In this document: positions 9,066-19,923 of the stretch, one piece after another
Layout: each line of letters opens with the position of its first letter
How positions within the stretch are numbered: the stretch's first letter is position 1
Assembly: GCA_020161435.1 (NCBI GenBank)
Contig: JAIUNV010000007.1
Span: forward strand, 62,001 to 126,000
From: Bacteroidota bacterium
GTDB taxonomy: Bacteria > Bacteroidota > Bacteroidia > Chitinophagales > Chitinophagaceae
Direction: 5' to 3'
Length of the DNA: 64,000 nucleotides
Notes under the pieces: model-generated
Seen by the model: only the letters and a program-made list of their open reading frames with translations
Told to the model about the DNA's origin: nothing
Databases searched by the model: none
Position numbers and translations under genes: made by a program

Positions 9066-9408
9066 CTACTTTACCGGTATGCTGGTACCAAGTACTGGTG
9101 GCAGCCTATAGAATCATGCTGGTTGTGAGTGTACATAATAGTGGCATGGATTGAGTATTTGTTGGTATGCAATTTAATAAAATTGGGGACGGTATAATTA
9201 ACTAAGGTTAATGCAGCCAGTTAGTATAATGGTTATAGGCTGCTTTTATAGTATGTACTTTTTGCCTTGATGCGAAAAGTACCAAAAATTCCGATTGCTA
9301 TCGGGACAAGGCCAACCCGAACCCTCCGGGCTCCCGATAGCTATCGGGATGGCCGTGCCTGCGCCTCCCTCTGTGTGGCGGGTTGACTGAACGTGGTGGT
9401 TTTTTTGA

Positions 9409-9433
9409 GGTTGGTAGGTTGGTAGGTTGGTAA
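9409..9433 (+). repeat. GGTTGGTA tandem tract
   Basis: Three direct copies of GGTTGGTA with a variant tail. Runs of GG separated by TT or TA resemble sequences that fold into two-layer G-quadruplexes, such as the thrombin aptamer GGTTGGTGTGGTTGG. Similar but shorter tracts sit in the copies near 16.6, 19.4, 19.7 and 23.8 kb. Confidence 0.75.
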
Positions 9434-9700
9434 GTGTGAGGGCTGGCCTGGTATTATACCCGGTATGACCAACACGCTGCGAGGGCGAAGATGGATGGTT
9501 TGATGGTACGAGCCAAGGCGTTGCATGGGTTAGCATGTACTTTTTGCCTTGATGCAAAAAGTACCAAAAAAATCAAGGCAAACCCGATGGCTCCGCCCGT
9601 TTTGCCGTGCCAGCACCTCCCTTTGTGTAGCGGGTTGACTTTTGTGGTAGTTGGTGATTTTTTGGGTTGATAAGTTTGGAGATTGGTAAGTTGGTAGGTG

Positions 9701-9832
9701 AATGGGCTGGCGTGGCATTATACCTGGTATGACCAAAACGTAGCCTGGGCAAAGCTGGAGCTGGCTGCTCATACTGCCCAGATTGGCCTGTGGGCAGAGA
9801 AACAACCAGTTGCACCGTGGGAGTGGCGGTAA
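9701..9832 (+). pseudogene. Thermonuclease C-terminal fragment (copy A)
   Basis: A 43-codon fragment with the C-terminal signature of staphylococcal nucleases: NGLAWHYTWYDQN, then a Glu/Ala-rich helix and IGLWAEKQPVAPWEWR before the stop. There is no start codon and no N-terminal half. A second, more diverged fragment (GLAWYYTRYDQHAARAKMD) lies in the first unit near 9441-9500 and runs into the hairpin at 9537. Confidence 0.75.
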
Positions 9833-9931
9833 ATGCAGTAATGTAATGGTTATGGGATATTGTTGCTGTATTTGGCGCCTGTTTCGTGAGCCACGAACCA
9901 AGGCGGAGCTTATGCTGAGAATTGATTTTTA

Positions 9932-10444
9932 CTAAGGAGTTTCCCAGCTTTTCAGCCGGTTTTCTATTTCCTCTTTCAGCCGGGGATTGTTTTGGAAAGT
10001 GTTGTTGATACAACAGAGGCGTTGAAGTGCAGCAATAGCTGCCTTTTTTGTGATTAGCTGATGCAATAGCATTTGGTCGAACAGCCATAGCATGCCATGG
10101 TATTCGATAGCTTGCCTGCCTGCATGATAGCGCACCTTTGCATCGCTGGTGAGTACCATGCCGCCGGTTTTTGAGGCCAGATAGAGCACCGTTTTGTCAT
10201 TAAATGTTAGTCCATCTGGCAAAGGCAAGGCCTGAATGGATGACATGTCTTCTAAGGTTAATGCATGAATGAACAATCGTTGGCTGGATACAAATGTCCT
10301 TAAGATTTCTTGTTGCTCCGCATACAGCTCTGCAAATACGGCATCGCTGGTATGAATATCAATAGGTAGTTGGAATAACTGATGTGTGAGTGAGAGGTCG
10401 TGCAGGTCTATAAAAATACATGCATCGGTGAGTGCTATATTCAT
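9932..10444 (-). CDS. PIN-domain protein (probable toxin)
   Basis: A 170-residue PIN-like protein. The acidic residues expected of the PIN RNase site are visible: an N-terminal Asp in the first strand (IALTDACIFIDLHD), Glu near residue 39 (VFAELYAE), a central FNDKTVLYLA region and a TSDAKVRYHA strand. PIN proteins of toxin-antitoxin pairs cleave RNA in a metal-dependent way. Its start overlaps the stop of the preceding HTH/ImmA gene by four bases (ATGA), showing translational coupling. Target RNA is unknown. Confidence 0.75.
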   Translation of the reverse strand: MNIALTDACIFIDLHDLSLTHQLFQLPIDIHTSDAVFAELYAEQQEILRTFVSSQRLFIHALTLEDMSSIQALPLPDGLTFNDKTVLYLASKTGGMVLTSDAKVRYHAGRQAIEYHGMLWLFDQMLLHQLITKKAAIAALQRLCCINNTFQNNPRLKEEIENRLKSWETP

Positions 10445-11511
10445 TCTACCATTTGTAACTGTTTTCTGAATGCGAGTAAAGACTGGTTATTCAATACGGC
10501 TGCTTTGTCTATTGAAATTATTTCTTCAGCCAACGCCCGCATCAATAACTGATTGAAGCGGGTAGCCTTTTCTTCACCGGTGTAAGGTGCCGGTTCAGTT
10601 TGGCGCCAGCCATGCTGATAAAACATAAATATAAACTGTTTCAGGTAACTGTCGGTAATGATGCCCAAATCGTTGGCACGGAAGGCGAGGGCCTGCATGG
10701 ATATGCCGTACTGCTTTTTCAGATCGGCCAGTTCTTGCAGGTGCAGGCGATTGCGTTTGGCTCCGAATTCCATTTTGGCAGTAGACTCAGGCAATAACAT
10801 AGCTGCTGCAAAGCGGTTGCACATCCGTTCTCTTTCTTTTTCGGGCAAATGGTTGATGGGCAGTAAGAGGTGGCCTAATTCGTGTAAGGCGGTAAAACGA
10901 AGCCGGTCGGGGCTATTGAGGCGCACACTATTCAGGGCAATGACTGCAATTTGCTGGTCATTCACCCAGGCTTTCATACCATCGAAGCTGTCCTCGGATT
11001 GGAGGAGTATCATTTTTACATGCTGGTCTTCCAATAGTTCGAGCACATTGTATAATGGGCCGGTACCCCAATTCCATTGGGTTCTAACGTGGTTGGCTGC
11101 AACTTCCACCTCTGCCAGCTCGTTGATTTCCGGAAAGTTGGCTAAGGGATTGATGAAAGGAGTATTCAGGCCTAATAAGGACTCCAGTTCGAGATAGCGG
11201 GACACCGCAAACCGGGTAATGGCAGTGATGCGTTCCTGCTCTTTTACCGGCAGCTTGCTGAGCTTCCTGTACTCCGGAGTGCTGAGCTCTACGGTGTGGC
11301 GTTGGAAAAAGAAATCGAGGCGTACACCCAGCACCCTACTGAGCTGCAGCAGCATTTGGGTATCGGGTATGGCTTCGCCTTTTTCGTATTTGTGGAGTGC
11401 CTGCTTTGAGATGCTGATTTGTTCGGCTTGGAGTTTATTGGCCAGATCTTGTAAAGAAAACCCATTGAGCATACGGGCTTCTTTGAAGCGCTGTGAAAAT
11501 GGGGCTGACAT
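10441..11511 (-). CDS. XRE HTH / ImmA-IrrE metallopeptidase (probable antitoxin)
   Basis: A 356-residue two-domain protein. Residues about 5-65 form an XRE helix-turn-helix (RFKEARMLNGFSLQDLANKL through VLGVRLDFFF). The second half has the ImmA/IrrE zinc-peptidase motif HELGHLLL and a following conserved helix MCNRFAAAMLLP. Such proteins repress their own operon and may be inactivated or activated by proteolysis; paired with PIN, COG2856-type modules act as antitoxin and toxin. The ATG at 11511 places the HTH right at the N-terminus; an ATG at 11532 would add seven residues. It is cotranscribed with the PIN gene. Confidence 0.85.
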   Translation of the reverse strand: MSAPFSQRFKEARMLNGFSLQDLANKLQAEQISISKQALHKYEKGEAIPDTQMLLQLSRVLGVRLDFFFQRHTVELSTPEYRKLSKLPVKEQERITAITRFAVSRYLELESLLGLNTPFINPLANFPEINELAEVEVAANHVRTQWNWGTGPLYNVLELLEDQHVKMILLQSEDSFDGMKAWVNDQQIAVIALNSVRLNSPDRLRFTALHELGHLLLPINHLPEKERERMCNRFAAAMLLPESTAKMEFGAKRNRLHLQELADLKKQYGISMQALAFRANDLGIITDSYLKQFIFMFYQHGWRQTEPAPYTGEEKATRFNQLLMRALAEEIISIDKAAVLNNQSLLAFRKQLQMVE

Positions 11512-12232
11512 AATGCGAGAATTGTTGTGCAAAGGTAAGGGTAAGTTGACAAATTTCGATTCACGTTTATTCCACTTCAGTATTTATGTCAGTTTTTACT
11601 AGGGTATGGATGGGAGTAGGTTGACAAAAGTTGTATATTTGACTGTCTGTCAGAATTATGGTTGTCTACTTACGGGTTGCTAATGAAATGTTAAGCCAAT
11701 GTGGCAGGTTACAGTTATTGGCCCGTGATTTGGAGGGTGATTCTGAAAAAAAGAAGAAGCCCCCACTGGTTGGTCGAGAACCGGCGAGGGCGAAGGGAAG
11801 ATTTATAGCATGCTAGAAACTTCCCGGAATCGGTATGAACACCGGTGCCAAAAATAAGGGAAACCCCTAAACCCCTTACGATTTGTATCCGGGGCCATTG
11901 CGGCCCATCGATTTCCTTCACAGCATGTATGACGGCTAGAATGCCCGCTACTCCGCAAAATATTGTGGGCAATTATTGTATTCACCCATTTAAATGAAAA
12001 ACAATGGGATAGTATCAACTCTAACACCAAATACCCCGGCGCTGTACGGATGGTTAAAAGGGGGACTAAGAAAGTCACCAAAGTAAACGAAACGCAAAAG
12101 GGGCTAATGATATAGCCACTGTGTTTACAATACTTCGCAAATCAAAAGTTGTAATTCAGTATAGAGGTGGTGAGATATCATATCAAGGCTCTAACAGAAA
12201 TGAACTAGTAACACATAAATAAAAATAAAATA
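11512..12232. other. Intergenic region upstream of CBASS
   Basis: About 700 bases without a convincing gene. Divergent promoters for the toxin-antitoxin pair and the CBASS operon must lie here. Bases about 12004-12113 on the plus strand read as an open stretch (WDSINSNTKYPGAVRMVKRG and on to a stop) that looks like the tail of a lost gene, but I do not recognise it. The part next to the CBASS start is very AT-rich. Confidence 0.4.
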
Positions 12233-13198
12233 ATGGCAAAAGAGCATGTCAGTCACTCAGATATTGCAGAGTATGCAAAAGAAAAGGTGAATTTACCGAA
12301 GGACAAAGCCGATGAATATAGAGCCCAAGTGCAACGGTTAAGAGAGAAACTTGAGGGTTACATATCGGAGTATCCTGATTTTACTTTAAAGAAAATGATT
12401 TTATCGGGGAGCCTTGCAAAGGGAACTGCTTTAAAATCATTAAATGATATTGATGTTGCTTGTTACGTAAGCGGAGCCGAGGCACCAAAGGATGTTAAGG
12501 CTCTTATTGAGTACTTGGCAGAACGTTTACGCAAGGCATTTCCTAATTTTAAACCGGAACAGGTAAAACCTAAAACATATAGTGTAACAGTTTCATTTAT
12601 TGGCAGTGGCCTCGATGTTGATGTTGTGCCTATTTTATACAGCGGGGATCCAAATTGGTACGGTGATTTAGTTAGCCAGGATGATGGTTCGTTTTTGAAA
12701 ACTTGTATCCCGAGACATATTGAGTTTATCGGCAAAAGAAAGAAAAAACAAGAAGTCCACTTTTCACAGGTTATACGTTTAGCCAAACAGTGGGTATATT
12801 TTCTCAAAAGCGAGAATGAAAATTTTCGATTTAAGTCATTCATGGTTGAATTAATTATGTCGAAATTATTGGATAGCGGTAAAGATTTTTCAGATTATCC
12901 TGAAGCACTTCAGGAGTTTTTTACCTACTTAGCTAAAAGTGATTTGAAAGAACTAATTGCTTTTAATGATTATTACCCGTTATCAAGTATTGGTTCTCAT
13001 TCCAGTCCTGTAAAAATTATAGATCCGGTTAACGCTGAGAACAATGCTGCTAAACAATATAATATTCAGCAAGCAAAAGCTATTGTTGAAGCAGCAATTG
13101 ATGCAGGAGATGCAATTGACGCAGCTATGGCTGCTCCTACAAAAAAAGAAACAGTTTATTATTGGCAAAAAGTTTTTGGCCCTTCATTTCAAATTTAA
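12233..13198 (+). CDS. cdnC: CBASS CD-NTase (cyclic oligonucleotide synthase)
   Basis: A 321-residue cGAS/DncV-like nucleotidyltransferase, the sensor enzyme of CBASS. The signature is GSLAKGTALKSLNDIDV with GS at 59-60 and catalytic D72/D74; the third acidic strand is LDVDVVP (D128/D130). An OAS-like helical region follows. Together with HORMA, TRIP13 and NucC it makes a type III CBASS. Studied systems of this kind make cyclic triadenylate that activates NucC; the product here is inferred from the effector, and I use the CdnC label on that basis. The next gene starts five bases after the stop. The operon is visibly more AT-rich than the core genes in this window. Confidence 0.92.
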   Translation: MAKEHVSHSDIAEYAKEKVNLPKDKADEYRAQVQRLREKLEGYISEYPDFTLKKMILSGSLAKGTALKSLNDIDVACYVSGAEAPKDVKALIEYLAERLRKAFPNFKPEQVKPKTYSVTVSFIGSGLDVDVVPILYSGDPNWYGDLVSQDDGSFLKTCIPRHIEFIGKRKKKQEVHFSQVIRLAKQWVYFLKSENENFRFKSFMVELIMSKLLDSGKDFSDYPEALQEFFTYLAKSDLKELIAFNDYYPLSSIGSHSSPVKIIDPVNAENNAAKQYNIQQAKAIVEAAIDAGDAIDAAMAAPTKKETVYYWQKVFGPSFQI

Positions 13199-13203
13199 TT
13201 ATC

Positions 13204-13713
13204 ATGAGTTATAGTTATACTGTTTCACAATCATTTACCGAAACGCATGCAAAGCACATTGCATCAAAAGTTGCTACTGATTTAAAAAGAGTGCAAAGAT
13301 TTTATGGTCAGCCCAGTGACTATGATATCAGTTCATATGAAAGCGAGTTAATTGAATTACTGAAGAAAGGATACCTGGGAACTGTTACTTACGGATACAA
13401 GAAGAACGACAATTGGATTACCCCTACTCTGCGATATACAGCTAAAGAATTATATGGAATGAGTTCTTCAGATGATGATCCAGGAAGAATACCTGCAAAC
13501 GCAAATATTGAAGGGGCTTCATTCCATTCTTTTTTAACATACAGCTTGGCTTGGGATGGTTTATCCCAAGCTGAAAAAGATGCTTTTAAAAGAACTCTTC
13601 CTTTTCAACGAGTGTATGCTTCTGAACCTGGTATATCCGGGTATATGAGTGTAGACAAATCTTATTCTGCTGGCGGCAAATCATTAGATCGTTCAATTTT
13701 AAAAAGTTACTAA
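13204..13713 (+). CDS. cap7: CBASS HORMA-domain protein Cap7
   Basis: A 169-residue bacterial HORMA protein. Its opening (SYSYTVSQSFTETHAKHIAS) and the following DLKRVQRFYG and LLKKGYLGTVTYGYKK are characteristic of bacterial HORMA1 proteins. In type III CBASS the closed HORMA bound to a peptide activates the CD-NTase. I chose the ATG at 13204, just after the CD-NTase stop, because the family begins with this strand; an upstream ATG at 13162 lies inside the CD-NTase gene. The downstream TRIP13 gene starts at the very next base. Confidence 0.88.
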   Translation: MSYSYTVSQSFTETHAKHIASKVATDLKRVQRFYGQPSDYDISSYESELIELLKKGYLGTVTYGYKKNDNWITPTLRYTAKELYGMSSSDDDPGRIPANANIEGASFHSFLTYSLAWDGLSQAEKDAFKRTLPFQRVYASEPGISGYMSVDKSYSAGGKSLDRSILKSY

Positions 13714-14649
13714 ATGGAAAATTTGAAACCCAGTGCTGAGGAATTATTTGAGCAAGCGTATACTTATCCTGATACAGATATGAAAGAGAGATATTCTATG
13801 CTTATCGGTCTTGATGAGCAAAAGAATAAGTTGAAAAAAATATTAGGTCTCCTTGTCAATCCGACAGGAATTGAAGAGTGGGCCAAAAAACACCATCCTT
13901 CTGCAAAGAAAATCATCCATACTGTACTTAGGAGACCACCCCTAATTGTATTAGCGGGTGACGTAGGTGCTGGTAAAACTGAATTAGCATTAACCATAGG
14001 TGATGAAGTCGCAAGACAGGAAAAAATAAATATTACACTTTTACCAATAAGCCTGTCAGCCCGAGGTAATGGCCGTGTTGGACAAATGACGCAGTTAATA
14101 AGTACGGCATTTGAATATACAATTGAAAAAGCTAAAAAAATAAAAGGCCAATCTGGGGCTGCAAGAGGAGCCGTTATTTTATTGGTTGACGAGGCTGATG
14201 CGCTTGCACAATCCAGAGAAAATACACAAATGCATCATGAGGACAAAGCAGGAGTAAATGCTTTCATCCGGGGTATTGATAATCTTGGAAATGGTAAACT
14301 GCCAGCTGCAGTCCTAATGTGTACTAATAGAATAGGCTCTCTTGATCCTGCAATCAAAAGAAGGTCTGCAGAAGTTCTTTACTTTAACAGACCAAGTAAA
14401 GACCAAAGGCTAAATGTATTAAACGGACCATTACAAGAGTTGGGGTTTAATCTAAAAGACGTTGAAGAGATTGTGGAAATGACTGGAGAAAGCAAAGAGT
14501 TTGAATACGGTTTTACCTTTTCTGATTTAACACAAAGACTTATACCTTCTATCATTCTGGATGCATATCCTGATAAAAATGTGACCCCAACAAGGGCAAA
14601 GGAAATTGCAAAAGGCATTATACCTACTTCACCATTTAAAGAGTATTAA
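13714..14649 (+). CDS. cap6: CBASS TRIP13-like AAA+ ATPase Cap6
   Basis: A 311-residue AAA+ ATPase of the TRIP13/Pch2 type. Walker A is AGDVGAGKT (G82-T89). Walker B is AVILLVDEADAL (D159, E160). A sensor region (VLMCTNRIGSLDPAIKRRSA) follows. In type III CBASS, TRIP13 pulls the HORMA protein open and off the CD-NTase, keeping the system quiet in uninfected cells. It is directly adjacent to cap7 and two bases before nucC. Length and motifs suggest it is intact. Confidence 0.9.
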   Translation: MENLKPSAEELFEQAYTYPDTDMKERYSMLIGLDEQKNKLKKILGLLVNPTGIEEWAKKHHPSAKKIIHTVLRRPPLIVLAGDVGAGKTELALTIGDEVARQEKINITLLPISLSARGNGRVGQMTQLISTAFEYTIEKAKKIKGQSGAARGAVILLVDEADALAQSRENTQMHHEDKAGVNAFIRGIDNLGNGKLPAAVLMCTNRIGSLDPAIKRRSAEVLYFNRPSKDQRLNVLNGPLQELGFNLKDVEEIVEMTGESKEFEYGFTFSDLTQRLIPSIILDAYPDKNVTPTRAKEIAKGIIPTSPFKEY

Positions 14650-14651
14650 TT

Positions 14652-15371
14652 ATGGCAGATTGGTCATTAAAAACATTGCTTGAGGGCCTTCATGACGTTA
14701 TCCATCAAAAATTGGAGACAGCTCGTAAAACAATTGTACACCCTGGATCGAAAGGCGATGCCAGTGAAAAAATATGGCTTGAAATGCTCCAGACTTATTT
14801 ACCTAAAAGGTATCAAGCAGAAAAAGCCTTTGTTGTAGATAGTAATGGTGTTTTTAGCCAACAGATGGATGTAGTTGTTTTTGACAGGCAATACTCACCT
14901 TTTATTTTTGATTATGAAGGGCAGAAGATTGTACCTGCTGAGAGTGTATATGCTGTATTTGAAGCAAAACAGGCAATTAATGCAGACTATGTAAAGTATG
15001 CACAAGAGAAAGTGCAGAGTGTGAGGAATTTGCATCGCACTAGCTTGCCAATACCACATGCAGGTGGTGTTTATCCTGCCAAGCCGCCAGTGAAAATTGT
15101 AGGAGGAATTTTGACACTTGAAAGTGATTGGACACCAGCGTTCGGAAAATCTTTAGAAGATGTTTTGAAATTTGATTTAGGATGTTTGGATATTGGTTGT
15201 GTCGCTGCACACGGATACTTTTTATTTGATCTTCCTTTAAAACAATATCAGTTTTTTAATGGAGGCAAACCTGCAACAGCATTCCTGTTTCAACTTATAT
15301 CTCAGCTACAATATAGTGGAACAGTTCCGATGATTGATGTGCTTTCATATTTCAAATGGTTGAATAAATAA
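14652..15371 (+). CDS. nucC: CBASS effector endonuclease NucC
   Basis: A 239-residue NucC-type DNA endonuclease. The sequence matches the family nearly end to end (PGSKGDASEKIWLEMLQTYL, PHAGGVYPAKPP, GCVAAHGYF). The catalytic PD-(D/E)XK residues fall at D73 (QMDVVVFD), E104 and K106 (AVFEAKQ), the same numbers as I recall for E. coli NucC. NucC trimers bind cyclic triadenylate, assemble into hexamers and cut double-stranded DNA, killing the infected cell. Two bases separate it from cap6 and four from the next gene. Confidence 0.93.
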   Translation: MADWSLKTLLEGLHDVIHQKLETARKTIVHPGSKGDASEKIWLEMLQTYLPKRYQAEKAFVVDSNGVFSQQMDVVVFDRQYSPFIFDYEGQKIVPAESVYAVFEAKQAINADYVKYAQEKVQSVRNLHRTSLPIPHAGGVYPAKPPVKIVGGILTLESDWTPAFGKSLEDVLKFDLGCLDIGCVAAHGYFLFDLPLKQYQFFNGGKPATAFLFQLISQLQYSGTVPMIDVLSYFKWLNK

Positions 15372-15375
15372 CATA

Positions 15376-16443
15376 ATGGATAAAGCAAGTAGATATGCAG
15401 TAAAGGTGGCTTGTATTGCGGGAATCGGAAATGCATTACTAAATTTAATTCACCAATTAAATGAAATGGATAAAACTCAAGAACAGAAGTTTGATTGGGA
15501 AAGATTATTTTATGAAGGGTGTAAAGGTGCATTTGTCGGAGCAATTGCTGGATATATATATGGGTCAATCGTTGATTATGAAAATTCACTGGAGAAACCG
15601 ATAAATACAGACGCATATTTGCAAGCACTTGCATCAAAAGTTAAGTTGAAAAAATCAGATAAAAAGCATCTACTTTTAAGTGAAAAAGCAAATATTCTCG
15701 TATCGGTTCTAAAAAATAACTTTGCAGATAAATTGAATGGGGAGCCAGTTCGTATAGGTTCAACCGAAAAAGGAACCGCAATAAAGGATAAATTTGATAT
15801 AGATGTTTGCTTTGCATTCAAGTCTAAAAGCTTCAGTTCAACAAGAGAAATGTTTGAAAACGTTTTAGGATTTTTAGTAAGTCTAAAAGGGCAATACTCT
15901 ATTGCCGATGTTAGAGATCAAAAAAAATCTATAGGTGTATATATTAAAGTTGGAATTAATGAATGCAGAGTTGACATTGTTCCATATAAACTTACTGATT
16001 CAAAAAAAAATAGCAGTTCCGGTTATTTATTTGTTAATGATAATTCTTTTTTCTCTGATAACTCTAGCTATACTAAGACAGATATTGGTCTGCTGAAGAA
16101 GAGCCTATTAACTGAGACGCAAAAGCAGATAGTTATAGTTCTTAAGCAATGGAAGAAAAGAAATGGTCTGCCTTTAAGTTCCTATTTGTTGGAGAATTTA
16201 GTTTTGGATGCATATCGATGCAACTACAATCGAATTTCCCAGACGTTTACACAGCAAGTAATTATGGTAATAAATCATATTGCTAGTTACCTTGACGTTA
16301 TTGTTATAAGAAGTGTAGAAAATTCCAATAATATTCTAACTAACATTTCTGAGAAAAGCAAAAGTGAAATTATATATGCCTGCAAAGAAGTGATAAAAAA
16401 ATATGAATATCAGCCAAATTCAGTTTTAAAAGAATTTTACTAA
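15376..16443 (+). CDS. Second nucleotidyltransferase with hydrophobic N-terminus in CBASS operon
   Basis: A 355-residue protein starting four bases after nucC. Its core is a second polymerase-beta-type nucleotidyltransferase: GSTEKGTAIKDKFDIDV (GS at 128-129, D141/D143) and CRVDIVPYK (D200) give all three catalytic acids. The N-terminus differs from an ordinary CD-NTase: it has two weakly hydrophobic, glycine-rich segments (about 8-26 and 47-65, the latter GAFVGAIAGYIYGS). These could be membrane hairpins or a glycine zipper. It is as AT-rich as the CBASS genes and appears cotranscribed. A fifth gene of this kind is not part of the standard type III CBASS I know. It could be a second signal synthase, a regulator or an unrelated defence gene. 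Confidence 0.8.
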   Translation: MDKASRYAVKVACIAGIGNALLNLIHQLNEMDKTQEQKFDWERLFYEGCKGAFVGAIAGYIYGSIVDYENSLEKPINTDAYLQALASKVKLKKSDKKHLLLSEKANILVSVLKNNFADKLNGEPVRIGSTEKGTAIKDKFDIDVCFAFKSKSFSSTREMFENVLGFLVSLKGQYSIADVRDQKKSIGVYIKVGINECRVDIVPYKLTDSKKNSSSGYLFVNDNSFFSDNSSYTKTDIGLLKKSLLTETQKQIVIVLKQWKKRNGLPLSSYLLENLVLDAYRCNYNRISQTFTQQVIMVINHIASYLDVIVIRSVENSNNILTNISEKSKSEIIYACKEVIKKYEYQPNSVLKEFY

Positions 16444-16554: not shown

Positions 16555-17024
16555 CTTTTTGGCCCGCTAGCCGGTAAACTGGTAGGTTGTTAGGTTGATA
16601 AGTTGGCAGGTTGGTAGGGTTTGGCAAATTGCCGTTATGATAACCGGTATTATCAATATGCTGCTTGTGGAAGGCCGATGTCTTTTCGTAAACGAAATGA
16701 GGGACTTGATGCACATTTATTTTTCTGACCCTGTAGAAAAAGGAAGTACGGATACGGCTGCATGGGATTGATTGCCCGGAGAAGGGGCAGCCGTTTGGGC
16801 AGGTGGCGAAGCAATTTGCCAATAAAGCCATTTATGGTAAGACCGTGAAGGTGGATAGTACTGATACCGACCGGTACGGCCGGACGATTGGCATTGTGTG
16901 GTACGATGAGCCGACGCAAAACCTGAATGAAGCTTTCTGTTTCGCCGTGGGAGTGGCGGTATATGCAGTAATGGTTCTGGGTTTTTTTGCAGCTGTATGA
17001 GGGTCACGTTTCGTGAGCCATGAA
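16555..17024 (+). repeat. Thermonuclease-fragment repeat, copy D
   Basis: A diverged copy lying between the CBASS operon and the KTSC/exonuclease genes. It starts with a GGTAGGTTGTTAGGTTG-type G-rich tract, continues with a degraded stretch resembling the GLAWHYTRYD region, and then holds the N-terminal half of the thermonuclease gene. It ends with the TTCGTG hairpin (17010-17024, one mismatch). The GTACTTTTTGC hairpin is absent here. Confidence 0.7.
16737..17000 (+). pseudogene. Thermonuclease N-terminal half with internal deletion
   Basis: The frame encodes the N-terminal half of a staphylococcal nuclease: EVRIRLHGIDCPEKGQPFGQ, then AKQFANKAIYGKTVKV and DTDRYGRTIGIVW. RLxGID, the PE pair and DRYGR are family hallmarks around the active site. 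After NLNEA the sequence jumps to the bases that encode PWEWRYMQ in other copies, now out of frame, so the middle and C-terminal parts are deleted. An in-frame TAG lies directly upstream. It shows what part of the gene the other copies lack. Confidence 0.75.
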
Positions 17025-19058: not shown

Positions 19059-19326
19059 CTTTGCTCCACCAATCAATTAAGCGAGCTAAAACTATCCGTC
19101 ATCCCGATTCCGAGCATCGGGAGAGGGATACTATCATTCAACGACCAAAATCTTTACCTCACTAGTATAAAAAGGGGCTGCCAGGACAGAGGCTTCATCA
19201 TTCTGTGACTGTTCACTGCTGACAGGAAACATTACATTTACTTTCATGCTCCGCTGCTGGCGAAAGTGTTCCGCCTCTGCGGGTCGCTTTCGCCTTTGTT
19301 GGTATTCCTTTCGGAGTCGCCGTTGC
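19059..19326. other. Spacer with degraded sequence shared with 47.1 kb
   Basis: No convincing gene. Bases near 19285-19345 contain TTTCGCCTTTG and, further on, CGGAG.CGCCGTTGC, ahead of the CCCGAT palindrome. The same order (TTTCGCCTTTG, CGGAGCCGCCGTTGC, CCCGATTGCTATCGG) occurs at about 47056-47112, so this is another dispersed repeat. A further TCCCGAT...ATCGGGA hairpin lies near 19103-19123. Confidence 0.4.
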
Positions 19327-19900
19327 GGTTCCCGATAGCTATCGGGATGGCCGTGCCTGCTCTTCCCTCTGTGTTGCGGGTTGACTTGTTGTGGTAGTTT
19401 TTTTGGGGTTGGTAGGTTGGTAGGTGTGTGGGAGTGGCCTGGCATTATACCCGGTATGACCAACACGCTGCATGGGCGAAGATGGATGGTTTGATGGTAC
19501 GAGCCAAGGTGTTGCATGGGTTAGCATGTACTTTTTGCCTTGATGCAAAAAGTACCAAAAATCCCGATAGCTATCGGGACAAGGCCAACCCGATCCCTCC
19601 AGGCTCCCGATTGCTATCGGGATGGCCGTGCCTGCGCCTCCCTCTGTGTGGCGGGCTGACTTGTTGTAGTAGTTTTTTTGAGTTGGTAGGTTGGTAAGTT
19701 GGTAAGTGTGAGGGCTGGCGTGGCATTATACCCGGTATGACCAAAACGTAGCCTGGGCGAAGCTGGAGCTGGCTGCCCGTACTGCCCAGATTGGCCTGTG
19801 GGCAGATAAACAACCTGTTGCGCCGTGGGAGTGGAGGTATATGCAGTAAATGGTATGGGATGATGCCGCTGTATGAGGTGCTTGTTTCGTGAGCCACGAA
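19327..19900 (+). repeat. Thermonuclease-fragment repeat, copy B (two units)
   Basis: Two tandem units arranged as in copy A. Unit 1 begins with the palindrome TCCCGATAGCTATCGGGA (19329-19346), has a GGTTGGTA tract near 19409-19426, and then a GVAWHYTRYDQHAAWAKMD fragment that runs into the hairpin at 19528-19555 (arms GTACTTTTTGC / GCAAAAAGTAC). Unit 2 repeats the palindrome, the G-rich tract and the nuclease fragment, and ends with the TTCGTG hairpin (19886-19900). The block separates the KTSC cluster from the Iet-like pair. Confidence 0.8.
19712..19849 (+). pseudogene. Thermonuclease C-terminal fragment (copy B)
   Basis: A 45-codon fragment encoding the best preserved C-terminal third of the nuclease: GLAWHYTRYDQNVAWAKLEL, then AARTAQIGLWADKQPVAPWE and WRYMQ before the stop. 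GLAWHY and GLWAD..PVAPWEWR are characteristic of the staphylococcal nuclease family. No N-terminal catalytic half is attached. Confidence 0.75.
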
Positions 19901-19923
19901 CCAAGGCACAGCTAAGCTACCAA

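Follow-up and report, generated by a model that had tools for sequence, protein, structure and literature searches.

The usual description of CBASS pairs one cyclase with one effector. In the type III system of E. coli MS115-1 the gene order is CdnC-HORMA-TRIP13-NucC, and characterised NucC homologues are activated by cyclic tri-adenylate. Panoptes, in which the mCpol synthase OptS is paired with the 2TM-beta effector OptE, provides a precedent for an inhibitory signal and a guard, and is often encoded in operons adjacent to CBASS (PMC12657218, PMC12657230). Hailong, in the passages that cite it in PMC12657218, PMC12657230 and PMC12265719, consists of a Pol-beta-type nucleotidyltransferase (NTase), HalA, with an inhibitory product, and a gated effector, HalB. 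In Clover the dNTPase CloA is accompanied by an accessory NTase, CloB, whose inhibitory product tunes the immune effector (PMC12265719).

The window, by which we mean the whole 64,000-nucleotide stretch of Chitinophagaceae contig JAIUNV010000007.1 that was analysed, holds an operon whose first four genes are like those of E. coli MS115-1 and which, unlike that system, carries an extra fifth gene, which codes for a hairpin joined to a second CD-NTase and is referred to here as NTase2. The features are as follows.

12233-13198, forward strand: cdnC, primary CD-NTase (cyclase) of the CBASS operon, 321 aa (PADLOC PDLC00808, 9.7e-143)
13204-13713, forward strand: HORMA-domain protein of type III CBASS, ATG at 13204 (Pfam bacHORMA_1, 1.2e-55; PADLOC PDLC00884, 1.5e-79)
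13714-14649, forward strand: TRIP13/Pch2-type AAA ATPase (PADLOC TRIP13 model PDLC00914, 3.1e-128)
14652-15371, forward strand: nucC, endonuclease effector (PADLOC NucC effector model PDLC00745, 1.5e-106)
15376-16443, forward strand: NTase2, hairpin-CD-NTase fusion and fifth gene of the operon, 355 aa from ATG to TAA with no internal stop
15376-15600, forward strand: N-terminal glycine-zipper helical hairpin of NTase2, residues 1-75, with helices at 3-33 and 41-71
15601-16440, forward strand: CD-NTase domain of NTase2, residues 76-355, with G128-S129, D141, D143 and D200

A preliminary description of this DNA had proposed a standard, tightly spaced four-gene type III CBASS followed by a fifth gene four bases 3' of nucC, and both statements hold: each of the four genes is confirmed by profile, the fifth is an intact open reading frame, and the successive gaps from cdnC to NTase2 are 5, 0, 2 and 4 bases. 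The CdnC product also scores above the cutoff of NCBIfam NF041116 and matches the solved E. coli MS115-1 CdnC (6p80) at 5.9e-140, with NucC matching its solved counterpart from the same strain (6p7o) at 7.6e-102. A CD-NTase, a HORMA protein, TRIP13 and an effector are thus present in one operon, as defines type III CBASS, and with NTase2 included the operon spans window positions 12233-16443.

Two further observations concern the surroundings of the operon. A divergent gene 0.7 kb upstream of cdnC (10441-11532, reverse strand) encodes an HTH and M78-peptidase protein (PADLOC RmrA, 1.1e-47; capP, 1e-16) and is followed downstream by a small gene (9932-10444, reverse strand) with a PDC-S70 match of 2.5e-5; the two genes may regulate CBASS or form a toxin-antitoxin-like pair of their own. 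Short G/T-rich repeats (GTTGGTAGGTTG-like) lie between genes at about 16560-16620, 9250-10090 and 19130-19910, and yield spurious open reading frames reading NLPTYQPTN.

That the fifth gene encodes a second nucleotidyltransferase, as had been suggested from its GSTEKGT and DID motifs and from D200, is borne out by profile and by predicted fold. Residues 77-347 match the PADLOC cyclase model PDLC00803 at 2.6e-34, the best profile for the enzyme domain; the match to NCBIfam CBASS_cyclase_a falls below the cutoff of that model, and a Pfam search of NTase2 returned no family at its curated cutoff. In an AlphaFold2 model calculated from an eight-sequence input (mean pLDDT 83.6) approximately residues 75-355 form a complete CD-NTase fold, which compares best with B. 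fragilis CdnB (7ljo; VIA Z 23.2, 259 residues, 2.6 A) and gives VIA Z values of 21-22 against CdnC, CdnD and DncV. The motif residues are where they had been placed (GST at 128-130, D141/D143 and D200), and G128, S129 and the aspartate triad D141, D143 and D200 are invariant across NTase2s and primary cyclases (alignment A9), so that, as far as sequence and model allow, NTase2 is competent-looking as a catalyst. The intact frame and the invariant catalytic residues rule out a pseudogene or inactive paralogue. A CCA-adding enzyme was also considered; phmmer gave E ~1 and TIGR03671 scored far below its cutoff, and CD-NTases fit better.

The N-terminus had been described as hydrophobic and glycine-rich. 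It is indeed glycine-rich and moderately hydrophobic, with Kyte-Doolittle values of 1.58 at residues 7-25 and 1.23 at residues 48-66. The model folds it into a helical hairpin, a result that is unchanged when the hairpin is modelled alone (pLDDT 86.8). The alignments (A5, A7, A8) show a conserved pattern, K..KYA..GA....N..Q....FDW...G...G...G...G, and the second helix carries a conserved G-x3-G-x3-G-x3-G run formed by G51, G55, G59 and G63. Membrane insertion of residues 8-26 and 47-65 had been put forward for prediction; a two-helix hairpin is what the model contains, but its hydropathy is borderline (0.7-1.9 over 19 residues in both helices), and insertion therefore stays a prediction. We consider it probable that the hairpin inserts into the inner membrane and forms oligomers; because its hydropathy is moderate and a segment inside the NTase domain of the same protein reaches 1.54, it may instead be a soluble oligomerisation module.

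Searches with the hairpin place it in no known family. Glycine-zipper, holin and PDC-M09B matches were all sub-threshold and membrane-hairpin folds non-significant; the fold search gave no significant match, its top entries including ATP-synthase c-subunit hairpins at E ~2, and sub-threshold PDB sequence matches were to glycine-rich segments and are taken as composition. A profile built on the hairpin found five strong matches in 294 family genomes, every one fused to NTase2, together with one marginal other match, at whose locus no CBASS gene was seen; in the phylum sample the remaining matches were weak (E 7e-6 to 1e-3).

We searched for NTase2 in 394 family-level, 396 order-level and 395 phylum-level genomes and scanned GTDB contigs. 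Ten genes combining hairpin and NTase were obtained, the window's included, plus one fragment cut at a contig end (L017/L052). All ten adjoin CBASS genes, of types II and III, and the adjacent effectors are NucC (six loci), Cap4 (two) and 2TM-NUDIX (two). The arrangements are listed below.

Window and L050: CdnC-HORMA-TRIP13-NucC-NTase2
L054 and L055 (= L015): Cdn-E1E2-JAB-NucC-NTase2
L053: Cdn-E2-NucC-NTase2
L051: NucC-NTase2, at a contig start
L016: CdnC-HORMA-TRIP13-Cap4-(164-aa protein, weak GNAT match)-NTase2
L019 with L018/L056 (Niastella populi): NTase2 divergent, beside TRIP13-HORMA-HORMA-Cdn-Cap4
L044: 2TM-NUDIX-Cdn-E2-NTase2
L020: 2TM-NUDIX-NTase2, at a contig end

At L051 and L020 the contig carries only the effector gene of CBASS beside NTase2, and the Niastella populi gene is split over two contigs, the halves of which we infer to be one gene. 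NucC lies directly upstream of NTase2 in L051, L053, L054 and L055 as well, with gaps of 4-15 bases where measured, and in most loci NTase2 ends a co-directional operon. The pairing of nucC with the fifth gene therefore recurs, and the outcome that would have spoken against it, a gene found mostly outside CBASS, was not what emerged. Since the family came from sequence searches blind to context, the CBASS linkage is not built into the sample, and a chance neighbourhood with nucC is ruled out by the ten loci together with the rarity of NucC, which in 117 family genomes was found only in that of the window. Carriage as phage or plasmid cargo was likewise rejected: no NTase2 match was found in phages or viral contigs and plasmid matches were weak, the one inspected, from Caballeronia, being a plain 254-aa NTase without hairpin beside DUF6602 (NucC-like).

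A full effector is present wherever the operon is complete, and NTase2 is therefore an extra; it is also optional, because CBASS operons of similar types without it exist (L021, L042, L043, L046). These operons, and the divergent gene of Niastella populi, would be expected were NTase2 a functionally separate defence gene merely riding in defence islands. We regard such a passenger as very improbable in view of ten loci out of ten beside CBASS, the short gaps to NucC, the terminal position in co-directional operons at most loci and the five-gene order of the window, kept in L050, a Crocinitomicaceae MAG, at 50-70% identity.

Several neighbouring arrangements were noted in the course of the survey. 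Upstream of CBASS operons at L050 (1593-3382), L054 (404-2139), L044 (3558-5323) and L053 (2546-4362) is a divergent set comprising a protein of ~190-235 aa (without a Pfam family in those tested), in most cases a small protein in the middle, and a protein of ~260-270 aa that Pfam identifies as an M78 peptidase in L050 and L054; the set resembles a regulatory cassette common to these CBASS operons. At L023 (6763-8375, reverse strand) two tandem NTase genes of ~265 aa, weakly NTase2-like and without hairpin, are preceded by a 271-aa open reading frame containing a hydrophobic stretch; this may be a further case of two NTases together. NTase genes of 264-267 aa at L022 (6673-8046) and L049 (6778-8039) each adjoin a short open reading frame with a hydrophobic stretch and resemble the hairpin and NTase split over two genes.

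The NTase2s share their fold with the type II NucC-associated CD-NTases described by PDLC00803, and differ from these in the N-terminal hairpin, in a C-terminus without the ...RFG tail and in their position in the tree, where nine of the eleven NTase2s group together (100/99) and separately from every primary cyclase; both copies linked to 2TM-NUDIX fall elsewhere, and a single clade is not rejected (AU test, p 0.147). Identities of NTase2 and of the adjacent NucC are discordant, 57% and 40%, respectively, between L050 and L054 and 46% and 79% between L054 and L055; NTase2 must accordingly have been swapped or replaced from one CBASS core to another. That it has moved between cores yet is still linked to CBASS argues for a function within CBASS. 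We read NTase2 as an optional addition to Bacteroidota CBASS that can pass between operons, and very probably as a second active CD-NTase that belongs functionally to CBASS.

As to how NTase2 is controlled, ...RFG is the C-terminal sequence of the type II primary cyclases at L054 and L055, and FGP.F that of the CdnCs; the C-termini of the NTase2s are short and variable after a conserved YQPNS and have neither tail. The type II cyclase-like C-terminal tail that goes with Cap2 licensing is thus absent, and judging from these termini Cap2 probably does not license NTase2 in the way that it licenses the neighbouring cyclase. Three roles had been suggested for the gene, namely to produce a second signal, to modify the first or to add a membrane-bound arm; the hairpin fusion and the missing Cap2 and CdnC tails favour a membrane-bound arm with a second signal.

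Panoptes, Hailong and Clover suggest by analogy that NTase2 most likely serves as a guard or back-up arm. The membrane insertion, nucleotide product, separate control and guard logic that we infer for it would fit together in the following manner. CdnC, licensed by HORMA and TRIP13, would make the signal that fires NucC, and NTase2 a different nucleotide product under separate control; this product, or nucleotide-occupied NTase2, would keep the fused hairpin assembly harmless, and interference of a phage with nucleotide signaling, be it through a sponge, a phosphodiesterase or a cyclase inhibitor, would release membrane damage by the hairpin. We favour a guard because the hairpin was not found alone, because NTase2 does not have the tails of its neighbours and because nucleotide-based guards beside CBASS are known. 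The guard version is nevertheless put forward tentatively, and the whole account, an optional and transferable CBASS module consisting of a membrane-anchored second CD-NTase that makes a second signal and serves as guard or back-up, is plausible while still falling short of probable. The NTase2 of L019, divergent and outside the operon, counts against it. In its most specific form, a single polypeptide of CD-NTase and pore-like glycine-zipper hairpin would be a self-contained nucleotide-gated guard within CBASS, its own product shutting a pore that the anti-CBASS sponges or nucleases of a phage open; this we offer as speculation, more doubtful than the general guard.

The same anatomy is explained nearly as well by an activating, membrane-bound second cyclase. 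NucC and Cap4 effectors respond to cyclic trinucleotides, and most neighbours of NTase2 are one or the other, so that a membrane-anchored sensor cyclase, triggered at the membrane on infection, might add its product to the pool that fires them, or activate its own oligomerised hairpin, giving redundancy and not a guard. A complete CD-NTase with all catalytic residues is what such an arm would need, and PDLC00803, the nearest profile of NTase2, is also the best match of the primary cyclase in the L015 NucC type II operon. However, NTase2 is tied to no single effector, being found beside 2TM-NUDIX CBASS as well, it is without the tails of licensed cyclases, and a hairpin never found apart from the NTase would be left unexplained; we therefore judge this arm possible, if on the unlikely side.

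The NTase2 loci have in common with Panoptes a second nucleotide synthase near CBASS, a membrane arm and a guard logic, the last two putative for NTase2. The synthase of Panoptes, in contrast, is a mini-Cas10 protein with a separate 2TM-beta effector, whereas NTase2 has, in the model, the CD-NTase fold and not that of mCpol, with the hairpin in the same polypeptide; after NTase2 in the window, L050, L053 and L054 no neighbour stands out as an obvious candidate 2TM-beta effector. Hailong, to the extent that the citing papers describe it, is similar in joining an NTase to a gated effector, and it is by this description that NTase2 is set beside HalA; HalB is a separate protein, while no HalB-like gene is apparent here and the recognised operon partners of NTase2 are CBASS genes. 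No HalA entry appears among the profile and fold matches of NTase2, an absence that carries no weight as evidence.

Clover, with its accessory NTase tuning an immune effector, suggests a role in which NTase2 would alter the CdnC signal or compete with it. Alternatively, its product would be an inhibitory nucleotide that holds the adjacent effector in check before infection, as CloB does with CloA. The precedent (PMC12265719) and the position directly 3' of nucC in six loci agree with such a tuning enzyme. Clover, though, is a two-gene system with a dNTPase, and no HD-type dNTPase partner is found in NTase2 operons, the partners in the window, L015, L016 and L019 being CBASS genes; moreover, one NTase2 family accompanies the unrelated effectors NucC, Cap4 and 2TM-NUDIX, and tuning gives the hairpin no role. 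We consider it improbable, and retain the guard or back-up arm as the preferred use of NTase2.

The open-access literature that was searched gave no account of two cyclases in one CBASS operon, and NTase2 may already be counted as a cyclase in surveys because a PADLOC cyclase model matches it. With a hairpin-bearing second cyclase recurring alongside several CBASS types and effectors, some operons would carry two nucleotide signals. If the single-polypeptide reading is true, NTase2 would be the equivalent of Panoptes or Hailong in one gene, derived from a CBASS cyclase and added to several CBASS types; a guard role, if confirmed, would illustrate how bacteria shield CBASS from phage nucleotide sponges within one operon.
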